From positions 1 to 43,604 of IMG/VR virus record IMGVR_UViG_3300044675_004081: 43,604 nt of DNA; one strand, written 5' to 3'. Below, in pieces: positions 18,601-41,507 of this stretch. Position numbers and translations under genes: made by a program. Source of the DNA: a virus. The notes beneath the pieces are model-generated. The model saw nothing but the letters and a program-made list of their open reading frames with translations, was not told where the DNA came from and made no database searches. The first letter of the stretch is position 1. Every line of letters starts with the position of its first letter.

Positions 18601-20775
18601 TTCATCTCTGATAGTTTCTCCAGATTTAAACCTTCCAGAAAGAGTTTTAACAAACAATAGATTATTGGTTGTGTATACTCCTGATGGAGACCCCTCTACA
18701 ACGCCGTAGGCGCCGCTTTCTAGACCAAATACATACTTACCAGTATCAAAGGCACCAACACCTGTTGGCACCGATTCTAGAGTGATCTTGGTGAAGAAAG
18801 ATGGATCAAAATACGACAATCCAAAGACGCCATTGTAGGCTGATGATCCACCAGATAAACGACCTCTAGAAAGTACAATATCGGAATCTGAGTTGAAACC
18901 AGATCCTCTGCTTTGGAGATAGAAATTGCTTGGCTTTACTTTTCCAATTACTGGTGTTATAGTTGGTCTATAATCAACGATGAAACCAAATTCACTATTA
19001 TTTGCTCCAAGTTGAGCTGATGCTTGAGTTAGATATAATTTACGTAAAAAACTAGTGTCTCCATTATCATACTCAAGTAATAGCAACTCCAACTCGTCCT
19101 TTGGACCTAAAACAGTTAGTTCTATAAATTTAACTGCTGTATTTGGATTTACAAGTGGCTTACTGACTACAGCATATGACAAAGATTTAATGCTTCCGAT
19201 GGCAGTTGGAGCATTAGTATTGCCTCTAGTTTTTACATAGTACAGTGTGCCAATCTTGTCTTCAAACGTTCCATCAGTAATAGATGCAATCGTAGTAACA
19301 GTATTTGTTACTTGAATAGTGATTGTTTTAATAGCATCATTACTATTAAAAATCAATCCTCTTCTATCTAAAGTTTGTCTGTGATCGGTTGGAAGTTCTG
19401 TATTATTAAGACCAATAGATCCATCATTAAATGTTGAATATAAAAATACATCTGGATATGCAGTGAGATCAGAACCCTCTTTGTTTAGGGGAACACTGCC
19501 ATATACATTCGTAACACTAAATGTTGGTAATCCTTTTGTCTTTAGCGTTACATTATCACTGCTGAGACTTTCTCTTGCTTTGTTGATCGGGAGATATTTT
19601 GTTTCTTTGTTGACAATTTCATATCCCTTAACATATGCTTTACCAGAACCAACACTGGCAATCATTTTTTTAGATGATTCTGCAGATGTTAATCCATTAT
19701 ATAATCCAAACTCATCTGCGGAAAAGATGCCTTTATTGCCATCTTTCTGTGCGTATTCTCTAACATCAACTGCAAAATTGTCTACAACGTAGTCGCCACT
19801 TTCATCGAAAGTTCTTCTTGCAAGTGTTTCTTCTAGTAAGTTATAATCTGTCTGAGTTACTTTTGATTTTACAACTCCTCTAGAAACTGTTAGAAGTTGA
19901 ATAAAATTCTTGTCAGTAATTGCTCCAAGATCAAACTCGGTTAACTTTACTCCAATTTTTAATCTATGTGCTCCTGGAGCAGTATAGTTTGAAGATCCAA
20001 TTGCATTATCATACAGTGAGCTATCTTGCTCAGGAGTTACAATTGTCTCTGATATAGTAAATCCAATTTTAGCAGAAGGTTTGTCATAATATTCATCAAT
20101 TACTAAAAGTTCTGCATCGTTGCGAACAAAGTATCCATTAATAAAATAAATTCCCTCTTCTACTTTAACAGCAGATGCAAATCCCATAGCAGGACTTTCT
20201 ACTGATGCTACGTCTCCAGTATCTGGATTTATTACACTAATACTTGTTGGAAGAACACTGCCATTTGTACCTACAACAAGAAGTGGAGTATTAACACCGT
20301 CAACTACCTCTAGAGTTTCTCCTTGTCTAAAAGTTGGTTCAGTATTTGAATTTCCACTTGTGATATAATTTACATAAATTGTATCGACAGAAGTATCTGT
20401 CGATTCTTTCGTTGTCAATATTGTTGCTACAACACCAGATGTTAATCCAACAACTTGTTGACCAACTAGTTGTGAGATGTCGTACTTTTTATAAACAATA
20501 TCATTACCTTCGTTTATTGCTACTTCAGAAACGGAAGATAACTTTACATAATCTAATTTAGTATTTAATCCAACCTCTCCAGGTATAACCATTTCGCCCT
20601 GTTTGAAGGCATACTTACCAAAACTTTCAATCTGATTCTGTAGAATAGACTGTAGTTGTGTTAGTTCTCTGCCTTGAATTGAGTAACCAGGGCGAAAAAG
20701 AACCTTATAAAAATTCTTATTCGCATCAAAGTCCTCGTAATAAGGATTTACGTTGAGATTGGTCTTCTGTGGCAT
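12643..20775 (-). CDS. Giant DUF4815-type baseplate/structural protein (2710 aa)
   Basis: The N-terminus (NVNPYYEDFDANKNFYKVLF, then PGYSIQGRELTQLQSILQNQ) matches what I know of the cyanophage structural family DUF4815. A helical, coiled-coil stretch lies near residues 1360-1400 (IGKLEKRIERLEYYTTLSI). Glycine-rich repeats appear near residues 1960-2030, and the C-terminus (VPKIQDIRAVASF) is short and non-repetitive. In T4, gp9 and gp10 follow gp8; this gene occupies their place but shows no similarity to them that I can see. It is probably a baseplate or fibre-connector protein. The SD sequence (GGCGGAG) lies 4 bases from the ATG inside a strong hairpin, so expression may be controlled at translation. 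Confidence 0.85.
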   Translation of the reverse strand: MPQKTNLNVNPYYEDFDANKNFYKVLFRPGYSIQGRELTQLQSILQNQIESFGKYAFKQGEMVIPGEVGLNTKLDYVKLSSVSEVAINEGNDIVYKKYDISQLVGQQVVGLTSGVVATILTTKESTDTSVDTIYVNYITSGNSNTEPTFRQGETLEVVDGVNTPLLVVGTNGSVLPTSISVINPDTGDVASVESPAMGFASAVKVEEGIYFINGYFVRNDAELLVIDEYYDKPSAKIGFTISETIVTPEQDSSLYDNAIGSSNYTAPGAHRLKIGVKLTEFDLGAITDKNFIQLLTVSRGVVKSKVTQTDYNLLEETLARRTFDESGDYVVDNFAVDVREYAQKDGNKGIFSADEFGLYNGLTSAESSKKMIASVGSGKAYVKGYEIVNKETKYLPINKARESLSSDNVTLKTKGLPTFSVTNVYGSVPLNKEGSDLTAYPDVFLYSTFNDGSIGLNNTELPTDHRQTLDRRGLIFNSNDAIKTITIQVTNTVTTIASITDGTFEDKIGTLYYVKTRGNTNAPTAIGSIKSLSYAVVSKPLVNPNTAVKFIELTVLGPKDELELLLLEYDNGDTSFLRKLYLTQASAQLGANNSEFGFIVDYRPTITPVIGKVKPSNFYLQSRGSGFNSDSDIVLSRGRLSGGSSAYNGVFGLSYFDPSFFTKITLESVPTGVGAFDTGKYVFGLESGAYGVVEGSPSGVYTTNNLLFVKTLSGRFKSGETIRDESGSTVKIAKDNTISHFVVQNRGLGYADGVSIIINGLEYDSSKVELFKTNSGSIYKALINNRRAVNIEFSQPPAVSVKNPSDATPPSSGAVVVPILFRDTVVTYSPQNVKSIGCRYGSGNANVFSADAVVDSKVYSEIKSVTDFTFFGTAGYDFIESTSFSADASTAVTQGDVVQFSDVNNNLVRAVVQSATEPSGSAKTRIYLDTVLPGNVTNTSIVRLRPVLKNPNSGTLLFPTGSKQVGKISAGGDDTKIKYYFRRDFVTTASASGGTVTFAAQLPFGTQRFAAFTEENYVITVLDKGDAPDIENGDIIYINSDAVEISSATDTASGLTSGSISLQLPSTYFGTIPSNGTFPKLKLTATLEVSNAKPRLKTAIKNKRITVNSSGDRVVPFRGNDYDVETVEILSYSDAYKLRYVYEGTSTTPPEVDTAGNLISGTDVTSRFTFDNGQRDTIYDVSRIVLKPGFEPTSGQLLIAFDYFEHSQGDFCTIDSYLHEAGVDESEIPTFNSSVHGNLELKNVLDFRPKVDNQAIIPGFQDTSSLEVTTGQFSGSGSVIAATPAADLGLEYTFSFSQVQYLDRIDGIFLNKKGEFFIKEGNSSLNPSKPDSVDDAIALFYVYIPAYTKTSNDVRLTPVDNRRYTMRDIGKLEKRIERLEYYTTLSILEQQALNMQIKDEIGLDRFKSGFFVDNFESHRVGNLSSLDYKCAIDSQQSVLRPQSKENSVSLKEVYTREDQRAVAGYKKTGNIITLPYTNLELLGNSFASKTLNPNPFVVIQYVGDVNVSPNIDQWYDQNIDPVVVDTNTSLFNIFLAKSDSKESFSSLYNSFVVNWVGAATAFTSINSLGEVNTQQATSAVTSASVSSSSNISPQNNDIGKGVQTKSINNKLVSTSLSFFTRSIPVKYVIRRLKPNTIVNVFLEGRKINRWVNPDLRFTGIAGNSLSSFNGTVITDENGNASGLILIPAGAPPRENATWSGDVNTVDYDTSGEEIRLTTGNLTFRFTSSATDAPKDTVDTYAEVKYYATGILPENPVSIVSTKPAYFKSNEGVQIINNNTDNPLRPNPLAQTFKVQNFDGGLFVTGVDLFFSTKSNDIPVKVYLTDVVSGKPGKNVIPGTEKVLNPNTFLKCYASGNVIVTKGENVTGTKSAASGPILKIIDKNGVEVVPSASGKFSLTNEQVYTLVLSNHNGRSFAQNEDLSIPSVTLANAKDGTDLKLTIAKDSGRLSDIRIKNTGANYDSAILTIESPQLPGGSVATARIEVSGGKIYNAEISLSGFGYTEPPSVVVKGVGNGAGGCEIETFIEIDTPAVQMGIATDIVGITNSTIPTHFAFDYPVYLQNDTEYAMAVETDSIDYKIWASRLGEVDIATSTVITTQPSLGSVYRSQNVDDWTEDIFEDLKFKLYRAEFAITRPAELLLTNENLGYELLNVNPFETNAGSSTNATSKLFKNNNNIVKVNHRDNGFEDSGKSYVFFRSAEEVAGVTSNILNNTLFKISNSGIDTYNITSSSKATGNSFGGGESVYASFNRKFEILYPQIRYITVTGTKIESSVKTTNIIPVDSKTTNYVSYSQTDDYEKTFLNEPHYFANQKMMASRINESLNNLTRSLTYKIALTSEKSYLSPVIDISTASIKSSTNRIENASGQEDRFGRRDQLIEFYPVYQFQLVDNGSTQIQSNQTIQGYNTKATGTIARVVGNVVYVRVKTTQFFERGERVILGNQQGLTENVDGVILPKVKINSNPSQVFVSIADASTIVARNPSSILQTYDNIITGKTVIWNNKTQELVVRTDIQPIIDDFNSRIIDNAVFNRNAVVIDQIADIFRIGDFIKYPNQPDAEASYWEIGKVSYRNGIDFVSDDTSKNSSSVAKYVTKEVSINSPATSIDVRLTANVKDVQSVQVLYRYKKASSQENFEDIDWIYFNQDGQPDTLEIATSENTISSTTEKQSSYQEFKYSVSNLPEFSSFAVKIVMKSVDPAYVPKIQDIRAVASF

Positions 20776-33080: not shown

Positions 33081-34877
33081 TTACTCTTTGTATGCACTAA
33101 AGGATGAATTAGCAATATCAACATCAAGATAAACCTCTCGGAATGCCTGGATATCATTAGATAATGGTTTTACTCTAACTGATATTCTGTTGTCAAAGAA
33201 GCTTCCTTTTATGATCGTTAAATCATACATTTTTAATTCGCCTTTAGCATAATCAATATCGCCAACTTCCTTGTCTAGGACAACTTTCTCACCAGTTATA
33301 GCATCTAGTGTATATAGGACAATTTTGCCACCCCTATCCTCAAGATAGACATCAAAGTTTGGATACTCGGTAACTCTAAATCCAGTCGTAGAAAGGACTG
33401 GAGCATCACAATCTATGTCAAAAGAATTCTGAAAACATATCTCATAATAGAAGGTGGAATTTAGTTGAGGATAAAAATCCTTCCTCATAGTAACAGTAGT
33501 AATGTTGGAATTGATGGATTTATCTGCCTCATCAATAACACCAATTGCTTTACTGTATCTAAACTTACCATTAAACTTTTCTAGATCGGAAACATCGATA
33601 TAATTTTGCAGTGCAGTTATAACTTTATCTCTAATTTGTGCAGTAGTATCGGAAGTCATTGAAGAATTGTAGTAAATCTTACTTGTCAATTCAACAAATA
33701 GAATTGATGGATCTACAATCACTGGTTCTACTGAAGCAACAATAAAATTCTTTAATTGCTTGATTATTTCTTTCTTTGTGAATGAAGTTATATACGATGC
33801 ATCATTTGGTTTTAAAGCAATAAAGACTTTTCCATATTGTGGTGGAACTTGATCTTCTCCACCAAAAATGATCACATCACTCGTTGCTGGATAAATGTTA
33901 CGAACAATAGCAGTATAGTCATCGGCAGTTACAGCACGATTTTGTGTCCCGTATGACTTTGGTGCATTGAACTTAATTTTCTTAGTAGATTCGATTGCCT
34001 CTCCACCAGAAGCAGGAACAGTCGAATTTACTGTAATTGAAAGAGGACCAGCAGTAGATCCATCCTGATTTTCTAGAACACCAGAAAATACAAATGTCTT
34101 AACACCGTTCGATGCTGGACCTGATGTTACAATATACGAAGCTTCAATCACTGCTCCATTTTCTAATTTCTTTCCTAGTACTCCATCACCAAAGATGAGT
34201 TCGTATCTTTCATCTTCGATCTCATTTAAGAAAAATACCTTGGAAGTTCCATCTACACCAAGAATATTATCTGAAACTAAGTATTGCTCTGAAAATCCAC
34301 TACCAGTTGGGAATACTTTTACTTGAATTGTATTTGTGTCAATATTCGCATTATCAAGAATAAATCTCTGCGATTGTTGTGAACTATTTACTGTAAACGT
34401 GTTAAGAAGTTGATTTCCTTCTCTAATTGGCACATTAGTAAATGTTGCAGTCTGATTTGCAACTTGTGCCTTCGCATCGTCTAAAACAACATACTGATAT
34501 AACACATTATCGTAAGAAGCAACAAATCCTGTGCCCTTCTTTAAAATGATCTGAGTATCTGTTGTTGTATTTGTATAATTTACAGAAAAAGAAATATACG
34601 CCGTTGGAGACGTTATACTTTTTGGTCTGTACCCTAATTGCTTCGCAATCGCCACTACGTTGTCCCTCAAGGTGGCAGAATCAATGAATAGTTCATTGAC
34701 TACCATATTGGTGTTAAACGCCGTGTAGTAGGTGTTATAGGCGAGTACGTCAATTAGGTTCGATAATGCCGAACCCTCAAAATCATAATCAGTAAATTCA
34801 GATTGAGCTCTGAGATATTCTTTCAGAGCAACTTTAATATCATTAAAGTCTAAATTGGCAAGTTGAGTGTAAGGCAT
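33081..34877 (-). CDS. gp6: Baseplate wedge protein gp6 (baseplate J-like)
   Basis: The protein is 598 residues, against 660 for T4 gp6. The N-terminal helical part (DYDFEGSALSNLIDVLAYNT, then NELFIDSATLRDNVVAIAKQ and LGYRPKS) is characteristic of gp6 and the baseplate J family. The central motif (AVTADDYTAIVRNIYP, residues ~313-330) is the conserved J-type core. gp6 dimers form the inner ring that joins neighbouring wedges. The start codon shares one base with the gp25 stop (TAATG), so the two are coupled. The next gene starts 4 bases after its stop. Confidence 0.92.
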   Translation of the reverse strand: MPYTQLANLDFNDIKVALKEYLRAQSEFTDYDFEGSALSNLIDVLAYNTYYTAFNTNMVVNELFIDSATLRDNVVAIAKQLGYRPKSITSPTAYISFSVNYTNTTTDTQIILKKGTGFVASYDNVLYQYVVLDDAKAQVANQTATFTNVPIREGNQLLNTFTVNSSQQSQRFILDNANIDTNTIQVKVFPTGSGFSEQYLVSDNILGVDGTSKVFFLNEIEDERYELIFGDGVLGKKLENGAVIEASYIVTSGPASNGVKTFVFSGVLENQDGSTAGPLSITVNSTVPASGGEAIESTKKIKFNAPKSYGTQNRAVTADDYTAIVRNIYPATSDVIIFGGEDQVPPQYGKVFIALKPNDASYITSFTKKEIIKQLKNFIVASVEPVIVDPSILFVELTSKIYYNSSMTSDTTAQIRDKVITALQNYIDVSDLEKFNGKFRYSKAIGVIDEADKSINSNITTVTMRKDFYPQLNSTFYYEICFQNSFDIDCDAPVLSTTGFRVTEYPNFDVYLEDRGGKIVLYTLDAITGEKVVLDKEVGDIDYAKGELKMYDLTIIKGSFFDNRISVRVKPLSNDIQAFREVYLDVDIANSSFSAYKE

Positions 34878-35269
34878 TATCGAGTACGCTCTAGAAAGAA
34901 TTCGACTGCTACAGGTGTGTCTTCTCTTCCACGAATTTCATAGGTAATCTCAATTGAATACCCATTATTGTCAAAATCTGGCATACAAATAATTTTTCTG
35001 ACAACAATTCTTGGTTCGTAACGTTCTAGAACGTCAGCAACCTCTGCTCGGATAAGACCAGCAGTACCATAATCTAAAGGTTCAAATAAACTACGGTATA
35101 TACCAGAACCCAAATTTGGTTGAAATAATCTCTCACCCTTACTAGTAAGAAGCAGATTAACAATAGACTGCGATATCGCAGCCTTATCCTTCACTGTGAC
35201 AAGATCATCAGTGACTGGATGCTTCTTAAAAGTAACGCTCAAATCTTTGAACGTCTGAAATTCGGGCAT
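34877..35269 (-). CDS. gp25: Baseplate wedge protein gp25 (GPW/gp25 family)
   Basis: The 130 residues match the gp25 family in length and motif: LLTSKGERLFQPNLGSGIYR (residues 41-60), then LFEPLD and a C-terminal YEPRI. gp25 sits in the wedge core and binds gp6 and the sheath-initiating end of gp53. The older name 'acidic lysozyme' is not supported by a visible catalytic motif here. A late promoter motif lies 22-30 bases upstream, and a small perfect hairpin (ACAGC/GCTGT) lies in the leader. There is no clear SD sequence. Confidence 0.93.
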   Translation of the reverse strand: MPEFQTFKDLSVTFKKHPVTDDLVTVKDKAAISQSIVNLLLTSKGERLFQPNLGSGIYRSLFEPLDYGTAGLIRAEVADVLERYEPRIVVRKIICMPDFDNNGYSIEITYEIRGREDTPVAVEFFLERTR

Positions 35270-36646: not shown

Positions 36647-36820
36647 TCAAACTGCTGCCAAATCCTTGGCGATCTTGCGTCCTACGAACTCACGCACTTG
36701 ATAGGGAATTGTGATCTGCTTGCCTGCATCTTCGTGGCGATAGATGTAATGCTTGCTGCCGTTCCTTTGTAATACCCAACCATGCACCTTTGCGAGTTTG
36801 TGCAATTGTTTGCTGGTCAT
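36647..36820 (-). CDS. HicA-like small protein (57 aa)
   Basis: The frame encodes MTSKQLHKLAKVHGWVLQRN, then GSKHYIYRHEDAGKQITIPY and GRKIAKDLAAV. This order (helix, GW-x-L-x-R-x-GS-x-H, a beta strand, then an xIPY strand and a helix with GRKI) is the HicA/YcfA fold, an mRNA-binding dsRBD-like domain. His24 stands where the catalytic His of HicA lies. No HicB antitoxin is seen next to it. Phages often carry lone HicA-like proteins, whose roles are mostly unknown. A promoter-like TACACT box lies only 5 bases before the ATG, and no SD sequence is present. Confidence 0.65.
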   Translation of the reverse strand: MTSKQLHKLAKVHGWVLQRNGSKHYIYRHEDAGKQITIPYQVREFVGRKIAKDLAAV

Positions 36821-36825
36821 GAGTT

Positions 36826-36831
36826 AGTGTA
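36826..36831 (-). promoter_or_regulatory. Promoter-like box TACACT, 5 bases before the HicA-like ATG
   Basis: TACACTAAC belongs to the repeated box family of this array. With a usual start site 6-8 bases after a -10 hexamer, the message would begin at or within the start codon, that is, leaderless. Confidence 0.45.
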
Positions 36832-36859
36832 GAGAATGGGGACGTGGTAGGATGGGGGG

Positions 36860-37057
36860 TCACCCCTTGCCCTGGTAGTCTGTGTGGAGACCTGCCAGCT
36901 CTGCTGCGCTGAACCCATCGATGCCCCCTGCTGCCAGGGATGCGCCTAGGCGGTCTTGACGGTGGGAGTTCAGCTGGGGGCGACCCTTCACCACGTTGGT
37001 GCTGACCCACACGGTCTGGCGGGTCTGGAGGTCGGTTGCCATGCTGTAGAGTGCCAT
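36860..37057 (-). CDS. Unknown small protein (65 aa)
   Basis: It starts MALYSMATDLQTRQTVWVST; a second Met at residue 6 is an alternative start. A central part (GRPQLNSHRQDRLGASLAAG) is followed by FSAAELAGLHTDYQGKG. No known domain, membrane segment or metal motif is visible. It is one of the GC-rich array genes with its own TAGACTAAC box 24 bases upstream and no SD sequence. Confidence 0.6.
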   Translation of the reverse strand: MALYSMATDLQTRQTVWVSTNVVKGRPQLNSHRQDRLGASLAAGGIDGFSAAELAGLHTDYQGKG

Positions 37058-37081
37058 GCTCGGTTCGTTTGGTATGGGGTT

Positions 37082-37087
37082 AGTCTA
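37082..37087 (-). promoter_or_regulatory. Promoter-like box TAGACT before the 65-aa gene
   Basis: TAGACTAAC lies 24 bases from the ATG. The leader ends CCAAACGAACCGAGC, which shares the CAAACGA motif with other leaders of the array and has no SD sequence. Confidence 0.45.
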
Positions 37088-37100
37088 GACGGTCTGGGGG

Positions 37101-37277
37101 TCAGTCCCGATCGCTGATGTTCCACTCGCCCCACTGTCCCTCGGGTGCCTGGTAGGTCCCGTTAGCGACGGCATCACGGATCGCTTGACGGTGTGCCTCC
37201 TCACGGGCGAGGCGCTCAGTGTAGGATGCCATCACGGAGGCGATCAGTTCGTTGTGGGTCATCTTGGTTTTGTTCAT
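37101..37277 (-). CDS. Unknown helical protein (58 aa)
   Basis: The frame encodes MNKTKMTHNELIASVMASYT, ERLAREEAHRQAIRDAVANG, then TYQAPEGQWGEWNISDRD. A long charged helix is followed by a Trp-containing tail. No family is recognised. The TAGACT box is exactly 6 bases before the ATG, so the message could be leaderless. Confidence 0.6.
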   Translation of the reverse strand: MNKTKMTHNELIASVMASYTERLAREEAHRQAIRDAVANGTYQAPEGQWGEWNISDRD

Positions 37278-37283
37278 GCTGTT

Positions 37284-37289
37284 AGTCTA
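37284..37289 (-). promoter_or_regulatory. Promoter-like box TAGACT, 6 bases before the 58-aa gene
   Basis: CCCTGTAGACTAACAGC then ATG: the same string, base for base, precedes the next gene upstream (37492). A -10 at this spacing implies a leaderless transcript. Confidence 0.5.
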
Positions 37290-37297
37290 CAGGGCGC

Positions 37298-37492
37298 TCA
37301 GGCGCACCAGGCGGCGAGGTGTGCCAGATTGCCAGCCGTCTCCTCCAGGTTGTCCTCGGTCAGACCTGCCAGGCAGGATTCGAGGTCGTCAGGATCCACA
37401 GCGTCGATGTCGCCATTGATCTCCCATGCCTGTGCCTCAGCGAGGGCGAGGCAGCGGTCACGGAGCGAGAGGGTGAAGGTGTTTTCTTTCAT
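37298..37492 (-). CDS. Unknown acidic protein (64 aa)
   Basis: It starts MKENTFTLSLRDRCLALAEA, continues acidic (DIDAVDPDDLESCLAGLTED) and ends in NLAHLAAWCA. Three Cys are spread along the chain without a recognisable metal motif. The composition is helical and strongly acidic, which is common among phage inhibitors of host proteins, but no function can be assigned. The box is 6 bases before the ATG. Confidence 0.6.
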   Translation of the reverse strand: MKENTFTLSLRDRCLALAEAQAWEINGDIDAVDPDDLESCLAGLTEDNLEETAGNLAHLAAWCA

Positions 37493-37498
37493 GCTGTT

Positions 37499-37504
37499 AG
37501 TCTA
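37499..37504 (-). promoter_or_regulatory. Promoter-like box TAGACT, 6 bases before the 64-aa gene
   Basis: CCCTGTAGACTAACAGC then ATG, identical to the element before the 58-residue gene. Confidence 0.5.
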
Positions 37505-37537
37505 CAGGGTCAGGAGGCAGGATCGGGGCAGATGGGG

Positions 37538-37555
37538 GACAGTCTCCCGACCGTC
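37538..37555 (-). repeat. Stop-codon hairpin (GACGGT/ACTGTC)
   Basis: On the transcript GACGGT pairs with ACTGTC (one G-U pair) around the 6-base loop CGGGAG, and overlaps the TGA of the DUF7249-like gene. It is a member of the hairpin family found at gene ends in this array. Confidence 0.5.
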
Positions 37556-37832
37556 ACAGATCTGCCATCATGGCGTTCATCTCATCGGCATCGATGGCGA
37601 CGCTATCCCATGCCACGCCGTCACCAGTCTGCCCGAGGTGGCGACCGATCATGCCATCCATCATGCAACGCACGAACTTATCCCAGGGGGTCTCATTGTC
37701 GCCACAGTACTCTACACATGCCTTGGCGGTATTGTAGAGGAATTGATCATTGCCGATCCACAGGGCAGCATTCCAGGTTTCGTAAGTTGCCCAACCGTTG
37801 TAGGTAGGAAGGGTGGCGGTTGCTTTGGTCAT
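37554..37832 (-). CDS. DUF7249-like phage protein (92 aa)
   Basis: The motif NGWATYETWNAALWIGNDQF (residues 12-31) is typical of a small family widespread in phages and plasmids (DUF7249 as I recall it). Then come helices with AKACVEYCGDNETPWDKFVR and an acidic end. The function is unknown. Related proteins are found among accessory small genes. The promoter-like box is 25 bases upstream and the leader ends CAAACGAAACGACCC without an SD sequence. Confidence 0.65.
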   Translation of the reverse strand: MTKATATLPTYNGWATYETWNAALWIGNDQFLYNTAKACVEYCGDNETPWDKFVRCMMDGMIGRHLGQTGDGVAWDSVAIDADEMNAMMADL

Positions 37833-37857
37833 GGGTCGTTTCGTTTGAACTGAGGTT

Positions 37858-37863
37858 AGTCTA
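37858..37863 (-). promoter_or_regulatory. Promoter-like box TAGACT before the DUF7249-like gene
   Basis: CCCTGTAGACTAACC lies 25 bases from the ATG. The leader carries the shared CAAACGA motif. Confidence 0.45.
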
Positions 37864-37897
37864 CAGGGTCAGCGGTGCCCATCGGGGCAGCTGGTGG

Positions 37898-38074
37898 TCA
37901 CTTGGGCATCTGGCACCCGCCTGGCATCACCTCGTTGATCTGCTGGCAGGTTAGGGCGTTGCGGTGGTCGATCTTATCACGAACCTTCAGAGCAGCGTCT
38001 AGCACGTGGGATCCTGCAACGATGGTAACGCTGGCGGTCAGCATCACGAGAATTGATTTGGCGAGGGTCGTCAT
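37898..38074 (-). CDS. Small membrane or exported protein (58 aa)
   Basis: The frame encodes MTTLAKSILVMLTASVTIVA, then GSHVLDAALKVRDKIDHRNA and a tail with two Cys (LTCQQINEVMPGGCQMPK). Residues 6-22 form a hydrophobic segment after a Lys, as in a signal anchor or signal peptide (a possible cleavage lies after VAGSHVLDA). The two Cys could form a disulphide in the periplasm. Its role may lie in lysis control or superinfection exclusion, but this is only a guess. Confidence 0.6.
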   Translation of the reverse strand: MTTLAKSILVMLTASVTIVAGSHVLDAALKVRDKIDHRNALTCQQINEVMPGGCQMPK

Positions 38075-38096
38075 GATGGTTCGTTTCGATGCTGTC

Positions 38097-38102
38097 AGTC
38101 TA
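38097..38102 (-). promoter_or_regulatory. Promoter-like box TAGACT overlapping an upstream stop codon
   Basis: The TAG of TAGACT is also the stop codon of the 36-residue ORF. The box is 22 bases from the ATG of the membrane-protein gene, with a leader containing GAAACGAACC. Confidence 0.45.
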
Positions 38103-38210
38103 CAGCCCCAGACGACGCATCAACCAACGATAGACCAGATCTGCAAGTGTCACACTAGGTTGCTGGTTAGAACGAATCACAGGCAGACTAGGCATGTTGT
38201 AGTGTGACAT
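38100..38210 (-). CDS. Possible very small basic protein (36 aa)
   Basis: The frame encodes MSHYNMPSLPVIRSNQQPSV, then TLADLVYRWLMRRLGL. The C-terminal amphipathic helix is basic. It fills what would otherwise be a gap in the array and is preceded by a weak version of the array box (CAAACTAAC, 38228-38220) 12 bases before the ATG. A TTG-start extension to 38285 overlaps the ArdA-like gene and is less likely. It could be non-coding. Confidence 0.45.
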   Translation of the reverse strand: MSHYNMPSLPVIRSNQQPSVTLADLVYRWLMRRLGL

Positions 38211-38262
38211 TGAATTGTTGTTAGTTTGCTGGGCGTCTTTAGGGCGCACCCATTCCCATTGC

Positions 38263-38691
38263 TCAATAGTCGCTGAACACAGCAACCTGACGATACTTCA
38301 CCTCACAGCAGGTGTAATCATAACGTAGGGAGGAATCGTAGGTCGCCTGCCAATCGATCACCAATGCAGAGGGAACATCGCTGATCTCGTTGTAGAATTC
38401 TTCAGCGAAGTCTGCCTCGGATTCATACCAACCACGGAACCGCTCATCACAGCAGTCAATATAGGACATGTCGCCCATTTCTTCGATCAGGGCATCAACG
38501 GCATCATATCCGATCGCTTCACCACAACGCACATACTCTTCATAATAGTTGCAGAAGTCATCCTCATTGTGAGCGTCAATGAACTCCAGCATGTCATCCA
38601 GAGCATAGTTCTCATCGATCAATTCATCGATCTTGTTAACAGTGTGAGCGTTCAGAACTTCTTTGTAGTTAGCGGTGAGAGTGATGCTCAT
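38263..38691 (-). CDS. ArdA-like anti-restriction protein (142 aa)
   Basis: The C-terminal half follows ArdA. ADFAEEFYNEISDVPSALVI (residues ~93-112) is followed by DWQATYDSSLRYDYT and a VAVFSDY ending, compared with the YIDYQAYGRDL and GIFEIVY ending of Tn916 ArdA. Upstream is an acidic helical domain (EYVRCGEAIGYDAVDALIEE). ArdA is a long, acidic DNA mimic that blocks type I restriction enzymes. This protein is strongly acidic but shorter than the usual ~165 residues, and the N-terminal ArdA domain is not recognisable. A partial or divergent ArdA fold is the best reading. Confidence 0.6.
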   Translation of the reverse strand: MSITLTANYKEVLNAHTVNKIDELIDENYALDDMLEFIDAHNEDDFCNYYEEYVRCGEAIGYDAVDALIEEMGDMSYIDCCDERFRGWYESEADFAEEFYNEISDVPSALVIDWQATYDSSLRYDYTCCEVKYRQVAVFSDY

Positions 38692-38715
38692 TTGCTTTGT
38701 TTGGTTGACTTGTTT

Positions 38716-38721
38716 AGTATG
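38716..38721 (-). promoter_or_regulatory. Promoter-like box CATACT before the ArdA-like gene
   Basis: TGCCATACTAAAC, an extended -10 type element, lies 24 bases from the ATG, directly after the small hairpin CCCC-GTCAA-GGGG. The leader is CAA-rich (CAAGTCAACCAAACAAAG) without an SD sequence. Confidence 0.5.
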
Positions 38722-38752
38722 GCACCCCTTGACGGGGTTTGGGAGGTTTGGT

Positions 38753-38772
38753 GGACAGTTCAGAGATTGTCC
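38753..38772 (-). repeat. Stop-codon hairpin of the 62-aa gene
   Basis: GGACAAT and ACTGTCC flank the loop CTCTGA, which holds the TGA stop of the 62-residue gene. It has one mismatch on the transcript. The same loop sequence occurs in the hairpin at 40211-40228. Confidence 0.45.
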
Positions 38773-38948
38773 ATCAGGGCATCTGCTACGATGTCACCAG
38801 CACCTGCCAGATTATCACGAACGATCAGGCGCAGCATCTCAGCACCATCGGCAGACTGATGCAGCATCCGAACGTGACCATTAGCAGCGTTCGGGCAGTT
38901 GCTGTGAACAACGGCGATCGCAAGGGCAGTTGCTTCGGTCTTTGTCAT
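38760..38948 (-). CDS. Unknown small protein (62 aa)
   Basis: It starts MTKTEATALAIAVVHSNCPN and continues ANGHVRMLHQSADGAEMLRL. The composition is Ala-rich and helical, without a membrane-length hydrophobic run or metal motif. No family is recognised. It has the best promoter of the array (TTGACT, 17 bases, CATACT). Confidence 0.6.
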   Translation of the reverse strand: MTKTEATALAIAVVHSNCPNAANGHVRMLHQSADGAEMLRLIVRDNLAGAGDIVADALMDNL

Positions 38949-38972
38949 AGTCTCGTTTGATTTGACTTTGTT

Positions 38973-39001
38973 AGTATGGATCAGATCAGGGGTAAAGTCA
39001 A
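38973..39001 (-). promoter_or_regulatory. Complete sigma70-type promoter, TTGACT-17-CATACT
   Basis: The -35 element TTGACT is at 39001-38996 and the -10 element CATACT at 38978-38973, with a 17-base spacer. The -10 lies 24 bases before the ATG of the 62-residue gene. This is the one array promoter with a clear -35, and it supports reading the other boxes as -10 elements. Confidence 0.65.
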
Positions 39002-39006
39002 GGGGT

Positions 39007-39016
39007 GGTGGCCACC
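39007..39016 (-). repeat. Palindrome GGTGGCCACC
   Basis: A 10-base perfect palindrome just after the stop of the 56-residue gene and upstream of the -35 at 39001. It could be part of the 3' hairpin (GACAGTCGGGAGGGTGGCCACC) or an operator. Confidence 0.35.
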
Positions 39017-39026
39017 CTCCCGACTG

Positions 39027-39197
39027 TCACATGCCGTTCAGGAAGTCATGCAGTGCCTCCCTATACTCTGCCTCAGTCTGAAAGACCCGACCATGGATAG
39101 TACGGGGGTACTGCGCCTTAGGGGCAGGGGCAGTAGGCAGATCCCGACCCTTTGCCAGGATCTGCTGAGCGTAAGCGGTGTGAGCGGTTTGTTTCAT
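39027..39197 (-). CDS. Unknown small protein (56 aa)
   Basis: The frame encodes MKQTAHTAYAQQILAKGRDL, then PTAPAPKAQYPRTIHGRVFQ and TEAEYREALHDFLNGM. A Pro/Ala linker joins two short helices. No family is recognised. The CATACT box lies exactly 6 bases before the ATG, which would make the message leaderless. Confidence 0.6.
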   Translation of the reverse strand: MKQTAHTAYAQQILAKGRDLPTAPAPKAQYPRTIHGRVFQTEAEYREALHDFLNGM

Positions 39198-39203
39198 GAG
39201 ATC

Positions 39204-39209
39204 AGTATG
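39204..39209 (-). promoter_or_regulatory. Promoter-like box CATACT, 6 bases before the 56-aa gene
   Basis: CCCCTAGGGGTGCCATACTGATCTC precedes the ATG. The GC palindrome touches an extended -10 (TGCCATACT). The spacing again implies a leaderless start. Confidence 0.5.
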
Positions 39210-39278
39210 GCACCCCTAGGGGCAGTCTGGTGGGTTTGGTGGTCAGTTGCCGAACTGTCCCAGCCCACCTAGACAGAC

Positions 39279-39305
39279 GCCCTCCAGGCGACTAACCTAG
39301 AGGGC
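39279..39305 (-). terminator. Ten-bp hairpin between the 43-aa and 56-aa genes
   Basis: On the transcript GCCCTCTAGG pairs with CCTGGAGGGC (one U-G pair) around a 7-base loop. There is no U tract on either side. It stands in the longest gap of the array (39198-39346) and may end the upstream transcript or protect a 3' end. Confidence 0.5.
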
Positions 39306-39331
39306 GGGAGGGGAGGGAAGGGGCAGCGAAG

Positions 39332-39340
39332 CGGCCGCCC
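39332..39340 (+). repeat. Direct repeat copy 2 flanking the GC-rich segment
   Basis: CGGCCGCCC, same orientation as at 36597-36605. GC content drops sharply to the right of this point. Confidence 0.35.
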
Positions 39341-39346
39341 AGTTCT

Positions 39347-39478
39347 CTATTCTTGGGTAGTGTAATCGATCTCTATGAAAGTATAGCAATCATCGTACAT
39401 ATCAGGGTCATTATATCCTTGCTTCTGATCTTCCACTTGTTGATCTTTCATCTCTTGGTACATCTCTTGAATAGTCAT
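39347..39478 (-). CDS. Unknown acidic small protein (43 aa)
   Basis: The frame encodes MTIQEMYQEMKDQQVEDQKQ, then GYNDPDMYDDCYTFIEIDYT and TQE. It is very acidic and Tyr-rich. A good SD sequence (GAGGG, 5 bases before ATG) supports the start, unlike most genes of the array. A perfect TATAAT at 39499-39504 lies 20 bases before the ATG. No family is recognised. Confidence 0.6.
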   Translation of the reverse strand: MTIQEMYQEMKDQQVEDQKQGYNDPDMYDDCYTFIEIDYTTQE

Positions 39479-39498
39479 GCTAACCCTCGTGAGTGTTG

Positions 39499-39504
39499 AT
39501 TATA
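39499..39504 (-). promoter_or_regulatory. TATAAT -10 box before the 43-aa gene
   Basis: A perfect -10 hexamer without a clear -35. Followed by an inverted CCCTC/GAGGG pair whose second half serves as the SD sequence. Confidence 0.4.
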
Positions 39505-39521
39505 TTTAATGAGGGCAATCG

Positions 39522-39836
39522 TCAGTTAAGACGCATACCCGAGAAGAAAGGAATGGTCATGTCATTCATGTTAACAAACCACTGACCTTTGCGCTGGAAG
39601 ATACCCTCATGAGGCAAACCATGCTCACGAAGAATAGCATTCAAGCGAGACTTCGTGGTAACAGTTTGCCAACCACCATCGAACAATTCAATCCAGGTTT
39701 CACCAATGCGAGCAATCAGATTGCCATGCAGGAAGACATCAGTAACGTTAGAACATGCCACCACCTCAGTGTTAGCGAGCTTCCAATCTTTGCCTGCTTT
39801 GATAGCAGCATTCATCAGACGTTCGATCTTACGCAT
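39522..39836 (-). CDS. Conserved phage protein of unknown function (104 aa)
   Basis: It starts MRKIERLMNAAIKAGKDWKL. The core VFLHGNLIARIG, then LFDGGWQTVTTKSRLNAILR (residues ~34-71) is a pattern I recognise from small proteins in many unrelated phages. The C-terminus has WFVNMNDMTIPFFSGM. The function is unknown. Its wide spread among phages suggests an early accessory role. The CATACT box is 26 bases upstream with a CAA-rich leader. Confidence 0.7.
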   Translation of the reverse strand: MRKIERLMNAAIKAGKDWKLANTEVVACSNVTDVFLHGNLIARIGETWIELFDGGWQTVTTKSRLNAILREHGLPHEGIFQRKGQWFVNMNDMTIPFFSGMRLN

Positions 39837-39862
39837 TGTCGGGTCGTTTGGTTGACTTGCTT

Positions 39863-39868
39863 AGTATG
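39863..39868 (-). promoter_or_regulatory. Promoter-like box CATACT before the 104-aa gene
   Basis: ACCCATACTAAGCAAGTCAACCAAACGA lies 26 bases from the ATG. A GGGGG...CCCCC hairpin with a TTGCAATTG loop lies just upstream. Confidence 0.5.
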
Positions 39869-39917
39869 GGTCAGGATGGGGGCAATTGCAACCCCCCTTG
39901 TGCCACTTGCTTAACTG

Positions 39918-40148
39918 TCACACATCATCATCAAACTCTCCTGCCATATCAGCAAACTTAAAGTGAAGTGAACCAAAGAATTCTGCGAGTTGGAAACTAA
40001 CATCGTAGCGAAGATCTTCGCCATTCTCAGCATACCAAACCTTAGCAGCACGGTAAGCATAACTCACCACACCAACGATAACAGCAGCGATGGTGGCAAG
40101 ATTGATCATCAAAGTGTTAACAAATGCCTTCATGAAAGTGTTAGTCAT
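39918..40148 (-). CDS. Small membrane protein (76 aa)
   Basis: Residues ~8-32 form one hydrophobic segment (FVNTLMINLATIAAVIVGVV, then SYAYRAAKVWY), flanked by Lys and Arg. The rest is an acidic cytosolic-type tail ending in AGEFDDDV. One membrane pass is likely, with the basic side facing in. No family is recognised. It has its own CATACT box with the most complete cassette of the array. Confidence 0.65.
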   Translation of the reverse strand: MTNTFMKAFVNTLMINLATIAAVIVGVVSYAYRAAKVWYAENGEDLRYDVSFQLAEFFGSLHFKFADMAGEFDDDV

Positions 40149-40172
40149 TCGTGAAATTTGTTTGACTTGGTT

Positions 40173-40178
40173 AGTATG
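40173..40178 (-). promoter_or_regulatory. Promoter-like box CATACT before the membrane-protein gene
   Basis: CCCC-ATCT-GGGG-ATGCCATACTAACCAAGTCAAACAAA: a GC hairpin, an extended -10, then the CAA-rich leader. The box is 24 bases from the ATG. Confidence 0.5.
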
Positions 40179-40210
40179 GCATCCCCAGATGGGGTTTGGA
40201 GTGATTAGTA

Positions 40211-40228
40211 GACAGTTCAGAGACTGTC
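40211..40228 (-). repeat. Stop-codon hairpin GACAGT/ACTGTC
   Basis: A perfect 6-bp stem with loop CTCTGA on the transcript. It overlaps the TGA of the 67-residue gene. Similar hairpins occur at several other stops in the array. Confidence 0.55.
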
Positions 40229-40430
40229 ACACTGCTGCCATCTGACGCAGGCGGTTCATGATATCAAACAACTCCATGTCATCCATATCAATATCATCCA
40301 TATCTACAGGGGCAAATTCATTCAAATTCACACTACCGTTAGCATAGATGGGAGCATAGAACAGTTCTTCACCATCTTCCTGAGACAGAGAATATACACA
40401 ACCGTGATTGGTGGAAGTGTAGAAAATCAT
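40227..40430 (-). CDS. Unknown acidic protein with a short internal repeat (67 aa)
   Basis: It starts MIFYTSTNHGCVYSLSQEDG. The middle is DMDDIDMDDMELFD, a doubled DMDD motif. It is strongly acidic and without membrane segments. Acidic phage proteins often mimic DNA or bind polymerase; nothing here proves that. The leader holds a 9-bp hairpin directly before the start. Confidence 0.6.
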   Translation of the reverse strand: MIFYTSTNHGCVYSLSQEDGEELFYAPIYANGSVNLNEFAPVDMDDIDMDDMELFDIMNRLRQMAAV

Positions 40431-40438
40431 GGGGCAAT

Positions 40439-40471
40439 CCCTGACGACTTGTTAACAATACATCATCAGGG
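40439..40471 (-). promoter_or_regulatory. Nine-bp leader hairpin before the 67-aa gene
   Basis: On the transcript CCCTGATGA pairs with TCGTCAGGG (one U-G pair) with a 15-base loop, ending 8 bases before the ATG. It may control translation. A CACACTAAC box (40493-40485) lies upstream. Confidence 0.5.
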
Positions 40472-40487
40472 AGGGTCTGGGGGTGTT

Positions 40488-40493
40488 AGTGTG
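40488..40493 (-). promoter_or_regulatory. Promoter-like box CACACT upstream of the 67-aa gene
   Basis: GGCACACTAAC resembles the GCCATACTAAC boxes. It lies 57 bases from the ATG, farther than the others because of the inserted leader hairpin. Confidence 0.4.
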
Positions 40494-40498
40494 CCACT

Positions 40499-40660
40499 TC
40501 AGAAACTGTCCTCATACCAATCATCTTTGGTCTTAAATTTGGTAACCTTCTTTTTAGACTGCCTACGTACATTCTTTACATCGTAGCCGTAGTCTTCAAA
40601 TTCATCGTCGAATTGTTTAAACTTATCGTTGCTATTCGAACGGTAATTCTTGTTGCTCAT
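40499..40660 (-). CDS. Unknown charged small protein (53 aa)
   Basis: The frame encodes MSNKNYRSNSNDKFKQFDDE, then FEDYGYDVKNVRRQSKKKVT and KFKTKDDWYEDSF. An acidic middle is followed by a basic patch (RRQSKKK). No family is recognised. A weak box (GTAACTAAA) lies 13 bases before the ATG. Confidence 0.6.
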   Translation of the reverse strand: MSNKNYRSNSNDKFKQFDDEFEDYGYDVKNVRRQSKKKVTKFKTKDDWYEDSF

Positions 40661-40694
40661 TGTCTTGGGGTTTAGTTACTCAAACAGTGTGTGA

Positions 40695-40943
40695 TTATTT
40701 AGATTGAACTAGGACTTGATCTTTGATCTGTTTGTTGATAAAACGACCAACAGATCCTTTATTATCTTCTAATTCAATACTGATCAATTCTTTAGACAAT
40801 TCTTCTACAAATTCTTCTACATTTTCACAGTTAAATGTATATTCTTTGTCTACATTACTATTATACACTACTTTAACTGTACTATCAACTACTTCAATAG
40901 AGTTAATAGCTGAACTCTGAAGATTATTGAAGGATTTGTTCAT
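40695..40943 (-). CDS. KTSC-like small protein (82 aa)
   Basis: The start (MNKSFNNLQSSAINSIEVVD, then STVKVVYNSNVDKEYTFNC) follows the KTSC pattern of 'SSxI, short strand, then VxY and YxF'. The rest is acidic and helical (EEFVEELSKELISIELED). KTSC is a small domain of unknown role that occurs alone in phages or fused to nucleic-acid enzymes. Its leader is unusually long and AT-rich (to ~41090). Confidence 0.5.
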   Translation of the reverse strand: MNKSFNNLQSSAINSIEVVDSTVKVVYNSNVDKEYTFNCENVEEFVEELSKELISIELEDNKGSVGRFINKQIKDQVLVQSK

Positions 40944-40959
40944 TTTGTGTGTGTGATTA

Positions 40960-41094
40960 AAGTTTAAATGGTAAGAAAAACAAGAAATCTTAAAAAACTA
41001 AAAAAGTTAAATTTTAAGATTTTCGAAAAACTCAAAAAACTCAAATATTAGGATTTTCAATATTTTAAGATTATTGAGAATCTCAATAAATGAG
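40960..41094. repeat. AT-rich stretch with short repeats
   Basis: About 135 bases made almost only of A and T, with repeated AATCTTAAAA and its inverse, AAAAACTCAAAAAACTCAAA in tandem, and a perfect 8-bp hairpin TTATTGAG-AAT-CTCAATAA at 41071-41089. No gene is visible. It adjoins the TTTTCCACA boxes and may be an unwinding element or a long leader. Confidence 0.55.
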
Positions 41095-41124
41095 TTTTCC
41101 ACAGTTTCCACAGGTTGTGGAAAA
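41095..41124. other. Inverted DnaA-box-like cluster TTTTCCACA
   Basis: TTTTCCACA at 41095-41103, GTTTCCACA at 41104-41112 and TGTGGAAAA (its inverse) at 41116-41124. TTTTCCACA is the known cyanobacterial DnaA-box consensus. The outer pair forms a 10-bp inverted repeat, the inner pair an 8-bp stem with a 3-base loop. It could be a DnaA-binding or origin-like site, or a terminator hairpin right after the stop at 41127. Confidence 0.5.
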
Positions 41125-41126
41125 CC

Positions 41127-41294
41127 TCAGAGGGACATCGCCTTCAACATGATCACTTTAGCATACTCGGTAGCAGTCTTCTTATCACCTGCCTTAAGAG
41201 CTTCTACGAATGCCTCACAGACTTGCTGATTGTCCAGGGCAATCTTCTGCTGAGGGGTCAGGGGTTTCTCAATAACCTCAGTGGTGGTGAGCAT
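41127..41294 (-). CDS. Unknown helical small protein (55 aa)
   Basis: I chose ATG 41294 (MLTTTEVIEKPLTPQQKIAL) because a TATACT box lies 26 bases upstream. A GTG at 41378 would lengthen the protein but would place that promoter inside the gene. The rest is helical (DNQQVCEAFVEALKAGDKKT, then ATEYAKVIMLKAMSL). No family is recognised. Confidence 0.6.
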   Translation of the reverse strand: MLTTTEVIEKPLTPQQKIALDNQQVCEAFVEALKAGDKKTATEYAKVIMLKAMSL

Positions 41295-41507
41295 TTGGGA
41301 TGTCTCTCGATTACCTAGGTAGTATAAGGCATCTGGGAGGTCCTCAGAGGGGTTTTGTGACACTTTGAGTACTGGCACACCTGAACTTGACTTTCGATAG
41401 GTTACACGCTAAGCCAACAACCACTCCGCACCTTCTCGAACGTTACCGAACGATACAGATCAATACCTCTGTATCACTCGGATATACTATATTTTTTTAA
41501 CCATTTC
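41295..41507. other. Intergenic region with hairpin and repeats
   Basis: These 213 bases hold the TATACT promoter, an 8-bp hairpin (GATACAGA/TCTGTATC, 41452-41475, loop 8) and two CGTTCG copies around GTAA (41438-41453). No further gene is visible. The hairpin lies about 30 bases after the end of the overlapping-gene operon and may mark its 3' end, though it lacks a U tract. Confidence 0.5.
41321..41326 (-). promoter_or_regulatory. -10 box TATACT before the 55-aa gene
   Basis: GATGCCTTATACTACC resembles the GATGCCATACTAACC element at 40173-40178 and has the best -10 match of this family. The spacing to the ATG is 26 bases. Confidence 0.5.

Follow-up and report, generated by a model that had tools for sequence, protein, structure and literature searches.

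The small-gene array and its cassettes

The window analysed here is the whole 43,604-nucleotide sequence (43.6 kb) of the IMG/VR record IMGVR_UViG_3300044675_004081, a contig of a T4-like cyanophage whose neighbouring genes resemble those of Kyanoviridae phages of Synechococcus. Directly past the baseplate gene gp25, and on the same (minus) strand, starts an array of small genes, almost every pair of which is separated by a copy of an intergenic cassette of about 80 bases, the subject of this work. Blocks of small unknown genes occupy the equivalent place beside gp25/gp6 in S-PM2, S-RIM32 and S-CAM1. The cassette has a constant order: a two-fold symmetric element (hereafter the dyad), a spacer of about 30 nt, a box (TG)n[T/C]A[T/G]ACT read below as a predicted -10 element, AAnnnCAT, an A-rich leader and the ATG of the next gene. 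The initial annotation had described ordered elements recurring between these genes, and that outline was right, although the component parts had to be redefined. Its count of 13 boxes stands: all lie within 36.8-40.7 kb ahead of small genes, every one on the minus strand. Minus-strand matches to [CT]ANACT[AG]A in the region number 15, two of them intragenic, whereas shuffled sequence gave a mean of 1.3 and never more than 5; the plus strand holds a single match. A profile hidden Markov model (HMM) iterated from the window, ACG-2014f and S-PM2, with 405 matches at E < 1e-5 in the loci searched (235 non-redundant at 90%), found 12 matches in the whole window, exclusively on the minus strand and exclusively within 37.06-41.38 kb, so that the array extends slightly further than first proposed. 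The features are as follows.

33081-35269, minus: baseplate wedge gp6 (33081-34877) and gp25 (34877-35269), the conserved anchor beside the array (PHROGs matches)
36647-41294, minus: array of about 17 small genes of 36-142 codons, its members including a HicA-like toxin, an antirestriction-like protein, DUF7249 and Kyano_Gp96
36823-36831, minus: box alone (TACACTAAC) ahead of the HicA-like gene 36647-36820 (from sequence)
37060-37140, minus: cassette ahead of gene 36860-37057; -10 TAGACT (HMM E 3e-9)
37262-37343, minus: cassette ahead of gene 37101-37277; TAGACTAACAGC-ATG, leaderless geometry; dyad within the preceding gene (HMM E 3e-11)
37480-37561, minus: cassette ahead of gene 37298-37492; dyad TGTGACGGTCGGGAGACTGTC at the stop codon; TAGACTAACAGC-ATG, leaderless geometry (HMM E 2e-14)
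37554-37832, minus: DUF7249 gene, an array member
37834-37920, minus: cassette ahead of the DUF7249 gene; -10 TAGACT (HMM E 2e-9)
38077-38156, minus: cassette ahead of gene 37898-38074; -10 TAGACT over the preceding stop codon (HMM E 3e-5)
38220-38228, minus: box alone (CAAACTAAC) ahead of a 36-codon open reading frame with ATG at 38210 (from sequence)
38696-38772, minus: cassette ahead of the antirestriction-like gene 38263-38691; dyad over the stop codon of 38760-38948; extended -10 TGCCATACT (HMM E 1e-7)
38950-39035, minus: cassette ahead of gene 38760-38948; stop-codon dyad, TTGACT-17-CATACT (HMM E 3e-9)
39186-39266, minus: cassette ahead of gene 39027-39197; -10 CATACT, ATG at the predicted +1, probably leaderless (HMM E 4e-10; spacing rule)
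39522-39836, minus: Kyano_Gp96 gene, an array member
39839-39926, minus: cassette ahead of the Kyano_Gp96 gene; stop-codon dyad, GC hairpin, -10 CATACT at 39868-39863 (HMM E 6e-14)
40157-40234, minus: cassette ahead of gene 39918-40148; dyad TGTGACAGTCTCTGAACTGTC, GC hairpin, -10 CATACT at 40178-40173 (HMM E 3e-9)
40459-40510, minus: weak or decayed cassette ahead of gene 40227-40430 (HMM E 1e-3)
41317-41382, minus: weak cassette ahead of gene 41127-41294, beyond the range first reported (HMM E 5e-4)

Anatomy of the cassette

Across the 235 non-redundant cassettes the dyad has the consensus TGTG[A/C]C[A/G]GTTgnngAA[G/C]TG[G/T]CACA, and the positions of the dyad and of the -10 are near-invariant. 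Most of the 280 distinct copies lie on the local coding strand (265), are followed by an ATG with an open frame (250) and have an open-frame stop codon near their 5' end (211), the commonest single position being the TGA within TGTGAC. The two arms, TGTGMCA-N10-TGKCACA, are 10 nt apart in 224/224 copies measured. A hairpin of the GACAGT-CTCTGA-ACTGTC type had been proposed at the stop codons; it is found in perfect form once (about 40211-40228) and imperfectly at 38753-38772, but the general element is the dyad, with arms that are often mismatched. Conservation is almost complete at its outer positions, whereas facing bases of the inner part change without regard to each other and are often mismatched (A.G, G.G), a pattern expected of a protein site with half-sites TGTG[A/C]CA and not of a selected RNA stem. 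Watson-Crick pairs are as frequent as independence predicts, an explicit count gave 71.3% paired against 72.3% in shuffles, and RNAalifold predicted no pairs and no consensus structure for the cassettes. The stop-codon element as a conserved RNA hairpin was rejected, as pairing covariation is absent. The dyad thus has the pattern of a putative protein-binding site made of two TGTG[A/C]CA half-sites; a sequence-specific RNA-binding role is possible.

The distance between this element and the box is nearly constant. In 228/229 cassettes 40-42 nt separate the conserved G of the dyad from the last T of the -10, and the intervening spacer is variable in sequence. A test independent of the profile, made on 430 dyads picked with no regard to any box, placed a -10 hexamer at offset 48-50 in 185 of them and few at most other offsets. 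On sequence grounds the box is a predicted sigma-70 -10 element, because its pattern of variation, the 17-nt spacing of a -35 and the geometry of the start codon all agree. Its variants TAGACT, TATACT, CATACT and TAGGAT retain the T, the A and the final T, and each phage has its dialect (TAGGAT in S-PM2, TATACT in ACG-2014f, TAGACT/CATACT in the window); the element is often TG-extended. A -35-like hexamer, matching at least 4 positions of TTGACA, stands 17 nt from the -10 in 27% of copies, the figure for other spacings being 0-5%. In the 39839-39926 cassette such a hexamer, TTGCAA, lies within the GC-hairpin loop (about 39886-39891), 17 nt before the -10 CATACT; an 86% identical copy of this cassette lies at S-PM2 20653-20735.

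Start codons fall into two classes. In 47/229 cassettes the ATG stands exactly 7 nt past the last T of the -10, at the predicted +1, with none at adjacent distances; in the remaining class it stands 21-29 nt past that T, and intermediate spacings do not occur. The first class is predicted to yield leaderless mRNAs. Its members in the window are the cassettes 37480-37561, 37262-37343 and 39186-39266, and there are more in relatives. Where the ATG is more than 15 nt away, 156/173 leaders have no Shine-Dalgarno-like motif. The proposal that each small gene travels with its own promoter is well supported by the fixed offset between dyad and -10, the 17-nt -35 and the position of the start codon. 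The leader of the 37834-37920 cassette is almost identical to leaders of S-PM2 (94% over 50 nt). In one stretch of S-PM2, at about 22.9-24 kb (locus L205), near-identical leaders (TAGGATAACTTCAGTTCAAACGAAACGACCCATGACC and close variants) precede successive small genes, several of which are missed or reversed in the annotation.

That each gene would also carry its own 3' end did not hold. The GC hairpin of the spacer exists, but in only about half of the copies (minimum free energy (MFE) <= -5 in 55% of 229 related cassettes) and not in the others; in front of the window boxes at 36823, 37079, 37281 and 38097 there is little or no hairpin of any kind. Runs of five or more T occur in only 10/229 cassettes. 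Since, in addition, neither hairpin is conserved as an RNA structure, a role as 3' end or terminator is not supported, and the GC hairpin does not look like a terminator.

Distribution among phages and hosts

A model built from sequence only found the cassette in 10/10 Synechococcus/Prochlorococcus myoviruses tested, with 4-39 copies each: ACG-2014f (39), S-CRM01 (24), S-PM2 (16), S-RIM32 (15), P-SSM2 (12), Syn9 (10), S-CAM1 (9), S-CREM1 (6), P-TIM40 (6) and P-HM1 (4); a few weak matches of this model are brief stretches of the dyad itself, read on the reverse strand. The cassette is general among the tested myoviruses of Synechococcus and Prochlorococcus, and it is restricted to that lineage: the same model found zero copies in T4, KVP40, the pelagiphage HTVC008M and Ma-LMM01 (4/4 controls). 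In S-PM2 several cassettes occupy a distinct region at around 20-24 kb that lies immediately upstream of gp25. In 80 loci picked solely for encoding a gp25 relative, the box has the orientation of gp25 60 times and the opposite one 5 times. The literal box pattern TANACTAAC showed no enrichment in cultured phages because every phage has its own dialect, a discrepancy that the profile search resolved.

The dyad is not enriched in cyanobacterial genomes. The dyad-plus--10 pattern gave 9 matches in 257 Gb from 84,980 bacterial and archaeal species, none of these 9 being in records titled Synechococcus or Prochlorococcus, as against at least 119 stretches in viral contigs. The dyad alone occurred 18 times in 145 cyanobacterial-class genomes where about 10 were expected by our own estimate, that is, near chance; with one mismatch permitted, a single phage genome holds up to 29. 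This distribution argues that the cognate factor would be phage-borne, or else belong to the host but make no such use of these sites.

Gene order changes at the cassettes

Searches with the array proteins (tblastn) revealed extensive reordering among relatives, with a cassette between almost every pair of genes. Window pairs that have no cassette between them are still adjacent in 28/28 cases in independent relatives having both genes, against 8/37 for pairs separated by a cassette (Fisher p 2e-11, a statistic that ignores shared ancestry). In one relative (locus L060) gene 37298-37492 is absent and its two flanking box copies are fused into one. Similarity around genes ends in the leader, the -10 or the upstream stop codon in 209/229 instances and enters the upstream gene in 20/229. 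Single-gene modules are thus exchanged, with module ends within the cassettes. The initial idea of a modular array is borne out by the adjacency counts; cassette homology would be the cause of the exchange.

Other features of the array

The modules of the array include the HicA-like toxin gene 36647-36820, beside which no HicB partner was recognised, and the antirestriction-like gene 38263-38691. Beside the array, 40943-41127 is AT-rich intergenic DNA in which imperfect repeats occur, both inverted and direct (TTTTAAGATT, TTGAG/CTCAA), the cassettes being GC-rich by contrast. An intergenic stretch of about 80 nt, 39265-39344 (minus strand), retains 84-96% identity in four independent relatives despite differing neighbour genes. 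It contains a pair of GC-rich hairpins: the loop of the first is TTCG, and the second is GCCCTCTAGG-TTAGTCG-CCTGGAGGGC, in which pairs are maintained through A-U/G-U changes. A search of Rfam with this stretch gave no match; it is a candidate structured RNA or terminator.

Interpretation

The explanation that we find probable is that the cassette is a portable promoter, most likely of early genes, bound at its dyad by a factor and doubling as an exchange patch. Each cassette opens with the site TGTGMCA-N10-TGKCACA, often holding the stop codon of the preceding gene, followed by a spacer of fixed length and free sequence and by a host-type sigma-70 -10 (with a -35 at 17 nt in about a quarter), the cassette ending in an ATG at +1 or in a short A-rich leader without Shine-Dalgarno. 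A putative dimeric protein, probably phage-encoded or delivered with the virion, would bind the dyad, which lies some 54 bp ahead of the start site, and would activate or insulate each promoter. Because the copies resemble one another, the cassettes may act as homology patches for swapping and reordering single-gene modules. Early timing is suggested by gene content, by precedent and by the nearness of cassettes to the small-gene cluster of Syn9; the dyad binder is putative. Several points weigh against this account. The 430-dyad test has secondary peaks at offsets 54 and 84, and some boxes of the window come without a clear dyad. Finally, the relatives share ancestry, so that adjacency counts are not independent, and cassette-free pairs may stay together as operons.

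Might the dyad instead be the operator of a phage repressor silencing early genes, or an insulating road-block, and not an activator site? Its palindromic form, its many copies, its place at gene ends and its specificity to phages would suit such a role. It lies upstream of the core promoter, however, where occlusion is not expected, and a simple road-block has no need of a distance to the -10 held within 1-2 nt; we regard this as rather unlikely. The portable promoter also explains the cassette better than a promoter-early stem-loop (PeSL) in the strict sense, where hairpins terminate the upstream transcript and the box begins the next. The composite position between stop and start codons fits the latter, a hairpin is present in about half of the spacers, and PeSLs are known from other T4-like phages, as cited in PMC4503421; yet the dyad pairs no better than shuffled sequence, there is no consensus structure, T runs are rare and about half of the copies are hairpin-free, so that we judge it quite improbable. 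The same low probability attaches to a dyad bound by a host regulator exploited by the phages, after the manner of NtcA or PhoB sites. To be sure, early genes must be read by the host machinery, and NtcA-type promoters have been reported in cyanophages (PMC3037559). The dyad, however, differs from the NtcA, Pho and CRP consensus, occurs at about 0.12 sites per host-like genome, near chance, and in the 84,980-species scan no picocyanobacterial genome showed its phage architecture; neither the bacterial and archaeal scan nor that of the cyanobacterial class supported a host regulator. That the copies owe their likeness solely to shared descent and the recent duplication of genes, and play no part in regulation, is highly improbable: dialects do differ between phages, but even distant phages keep the length of the spacer and the elements on either side of it unchanged, although the spacer sequence itself is scrambled.

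Relation to known systems

PeSLs, the promoter-early stem-loop cassettes known from T4-like phages (Arbiol 2010; Comeau 2014; both as cited in PMC4503421), are reported as composite early-type sigma-70 promoters that stand in many near-identical copies between small non-core genes, with gene order shuffled at the copies, and that occur in hyperplastic regions between core blocks. The present cassette resembles them in these respects, gene order changing at its copies (the adjacency contrast and the gene loss described above) and the array lying by gp25/gp6. A host-type sigma-70 promoter was found here too (-10, 17-nt -35, start geometry), early timing being suggested by analogy. The cassette differs in that it lacks a conserved terminator stem-loop and carries instead a dyad, conserved in sequence, whose distance from the -10 is fixed; its model finds none in T4 or KVP40. 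It behaves like PeSLs but is built differently, since no stem-loop terminator was found. The likeness to the S-PM2 ORFanage, invoked at first, is loose: in both, a T4-like cyanophage carries a block of tiny genes whose functions are unknown, and S-PM2 has 16 cassettes, but several of these lie in a separate region and not in the ORFanage, for which the authors weighed PeSLs and judged their density low (PMC4503421). To suppose that the cassette may not be described was too strong, given the precedents of PeSLs and of an early regulatory element in Syn9.

Doron and colleagues (2016) reportedly described a new element that governs the transcription of early genes in Syn9, is present in P-TIM40 too and is conserved in T4-like cyanophages. 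As both phages carry the cassette (10 and 6 copies), which is widespread in T4-like cyanophages, the promoter element may already be known. The cassette is likely to be that element. Gene shuffling and the leaderless subset are not known to be part of that description. The dyad is therefore not claimed as new, and part of the cassette may already be described there.

Other parallels are more distant. The stoperators of mycobacteriophage L5 are asymmetric 13-bp repressor sites without fixed promoter spacing. They resemble the dyad in that a single site recurs at one gene boundary after another within a region of lytic genes, but the dyad is symmetric and fixed relative to the -10. The middle promoters of T4 combine a sigma-70 -10 with a MotA box, short and placed at about -30. 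The cassette likewise joins such a -10 to an upstream element that is not a -35, but this is a 24-bp dyad centred near -54; no MotA box was found near -30, where the spacer is variable in the 235 non-redundant cassettes. CRP and NtcA sites (TGTGA-N6-TCACA, GTA-N8-TAC) do not match arms held 10 nt apart. Both motA and asiA are reported missing from cyanophages (PMC2984593; PMC5780444). Earlier scans of cyanophages used generic sigma-70, terminator, Pho and NtcA models (Sullivan et al., PMC3037559), and sigma-70-like early motifs were noted in S-PM2 and Syn9, the exact mechanism of early/middle control being called unresolved (Clokie et al., PMC2984593).

Significance

Control of early and middle genes in T4-like cyanophages, which are without alt, mod, motA and asiA, has been described as unclear (PMC2984593). 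For this question the cassette supplies a precise sequence, with a dyad, a fixed spacing and start sites predicted at single-base resolution, and a tool to find, and to start correctly, tiny early genes overlooked by annotation. It is tempting, if as yet tentative, to extend this to all T4-like phages of Synechococcus and Prochlorococcus: they would share a dedicated class of early promoters that depends on a phage-borne dyad-binding factor, the counterpart of the missing Alt/MotA machinery of T4, that yields partly leaderless mRNAs and that also serves as a recombination patch for trading single small genes. A family-wide promoter cassette of fixed geometry, PeSL-like but differently built, is real at the joints of a shuffling gene array, and it offers cyanophages a concrete route for reordering their host-takeover genes, antirestriction and HicA-like genes among them.

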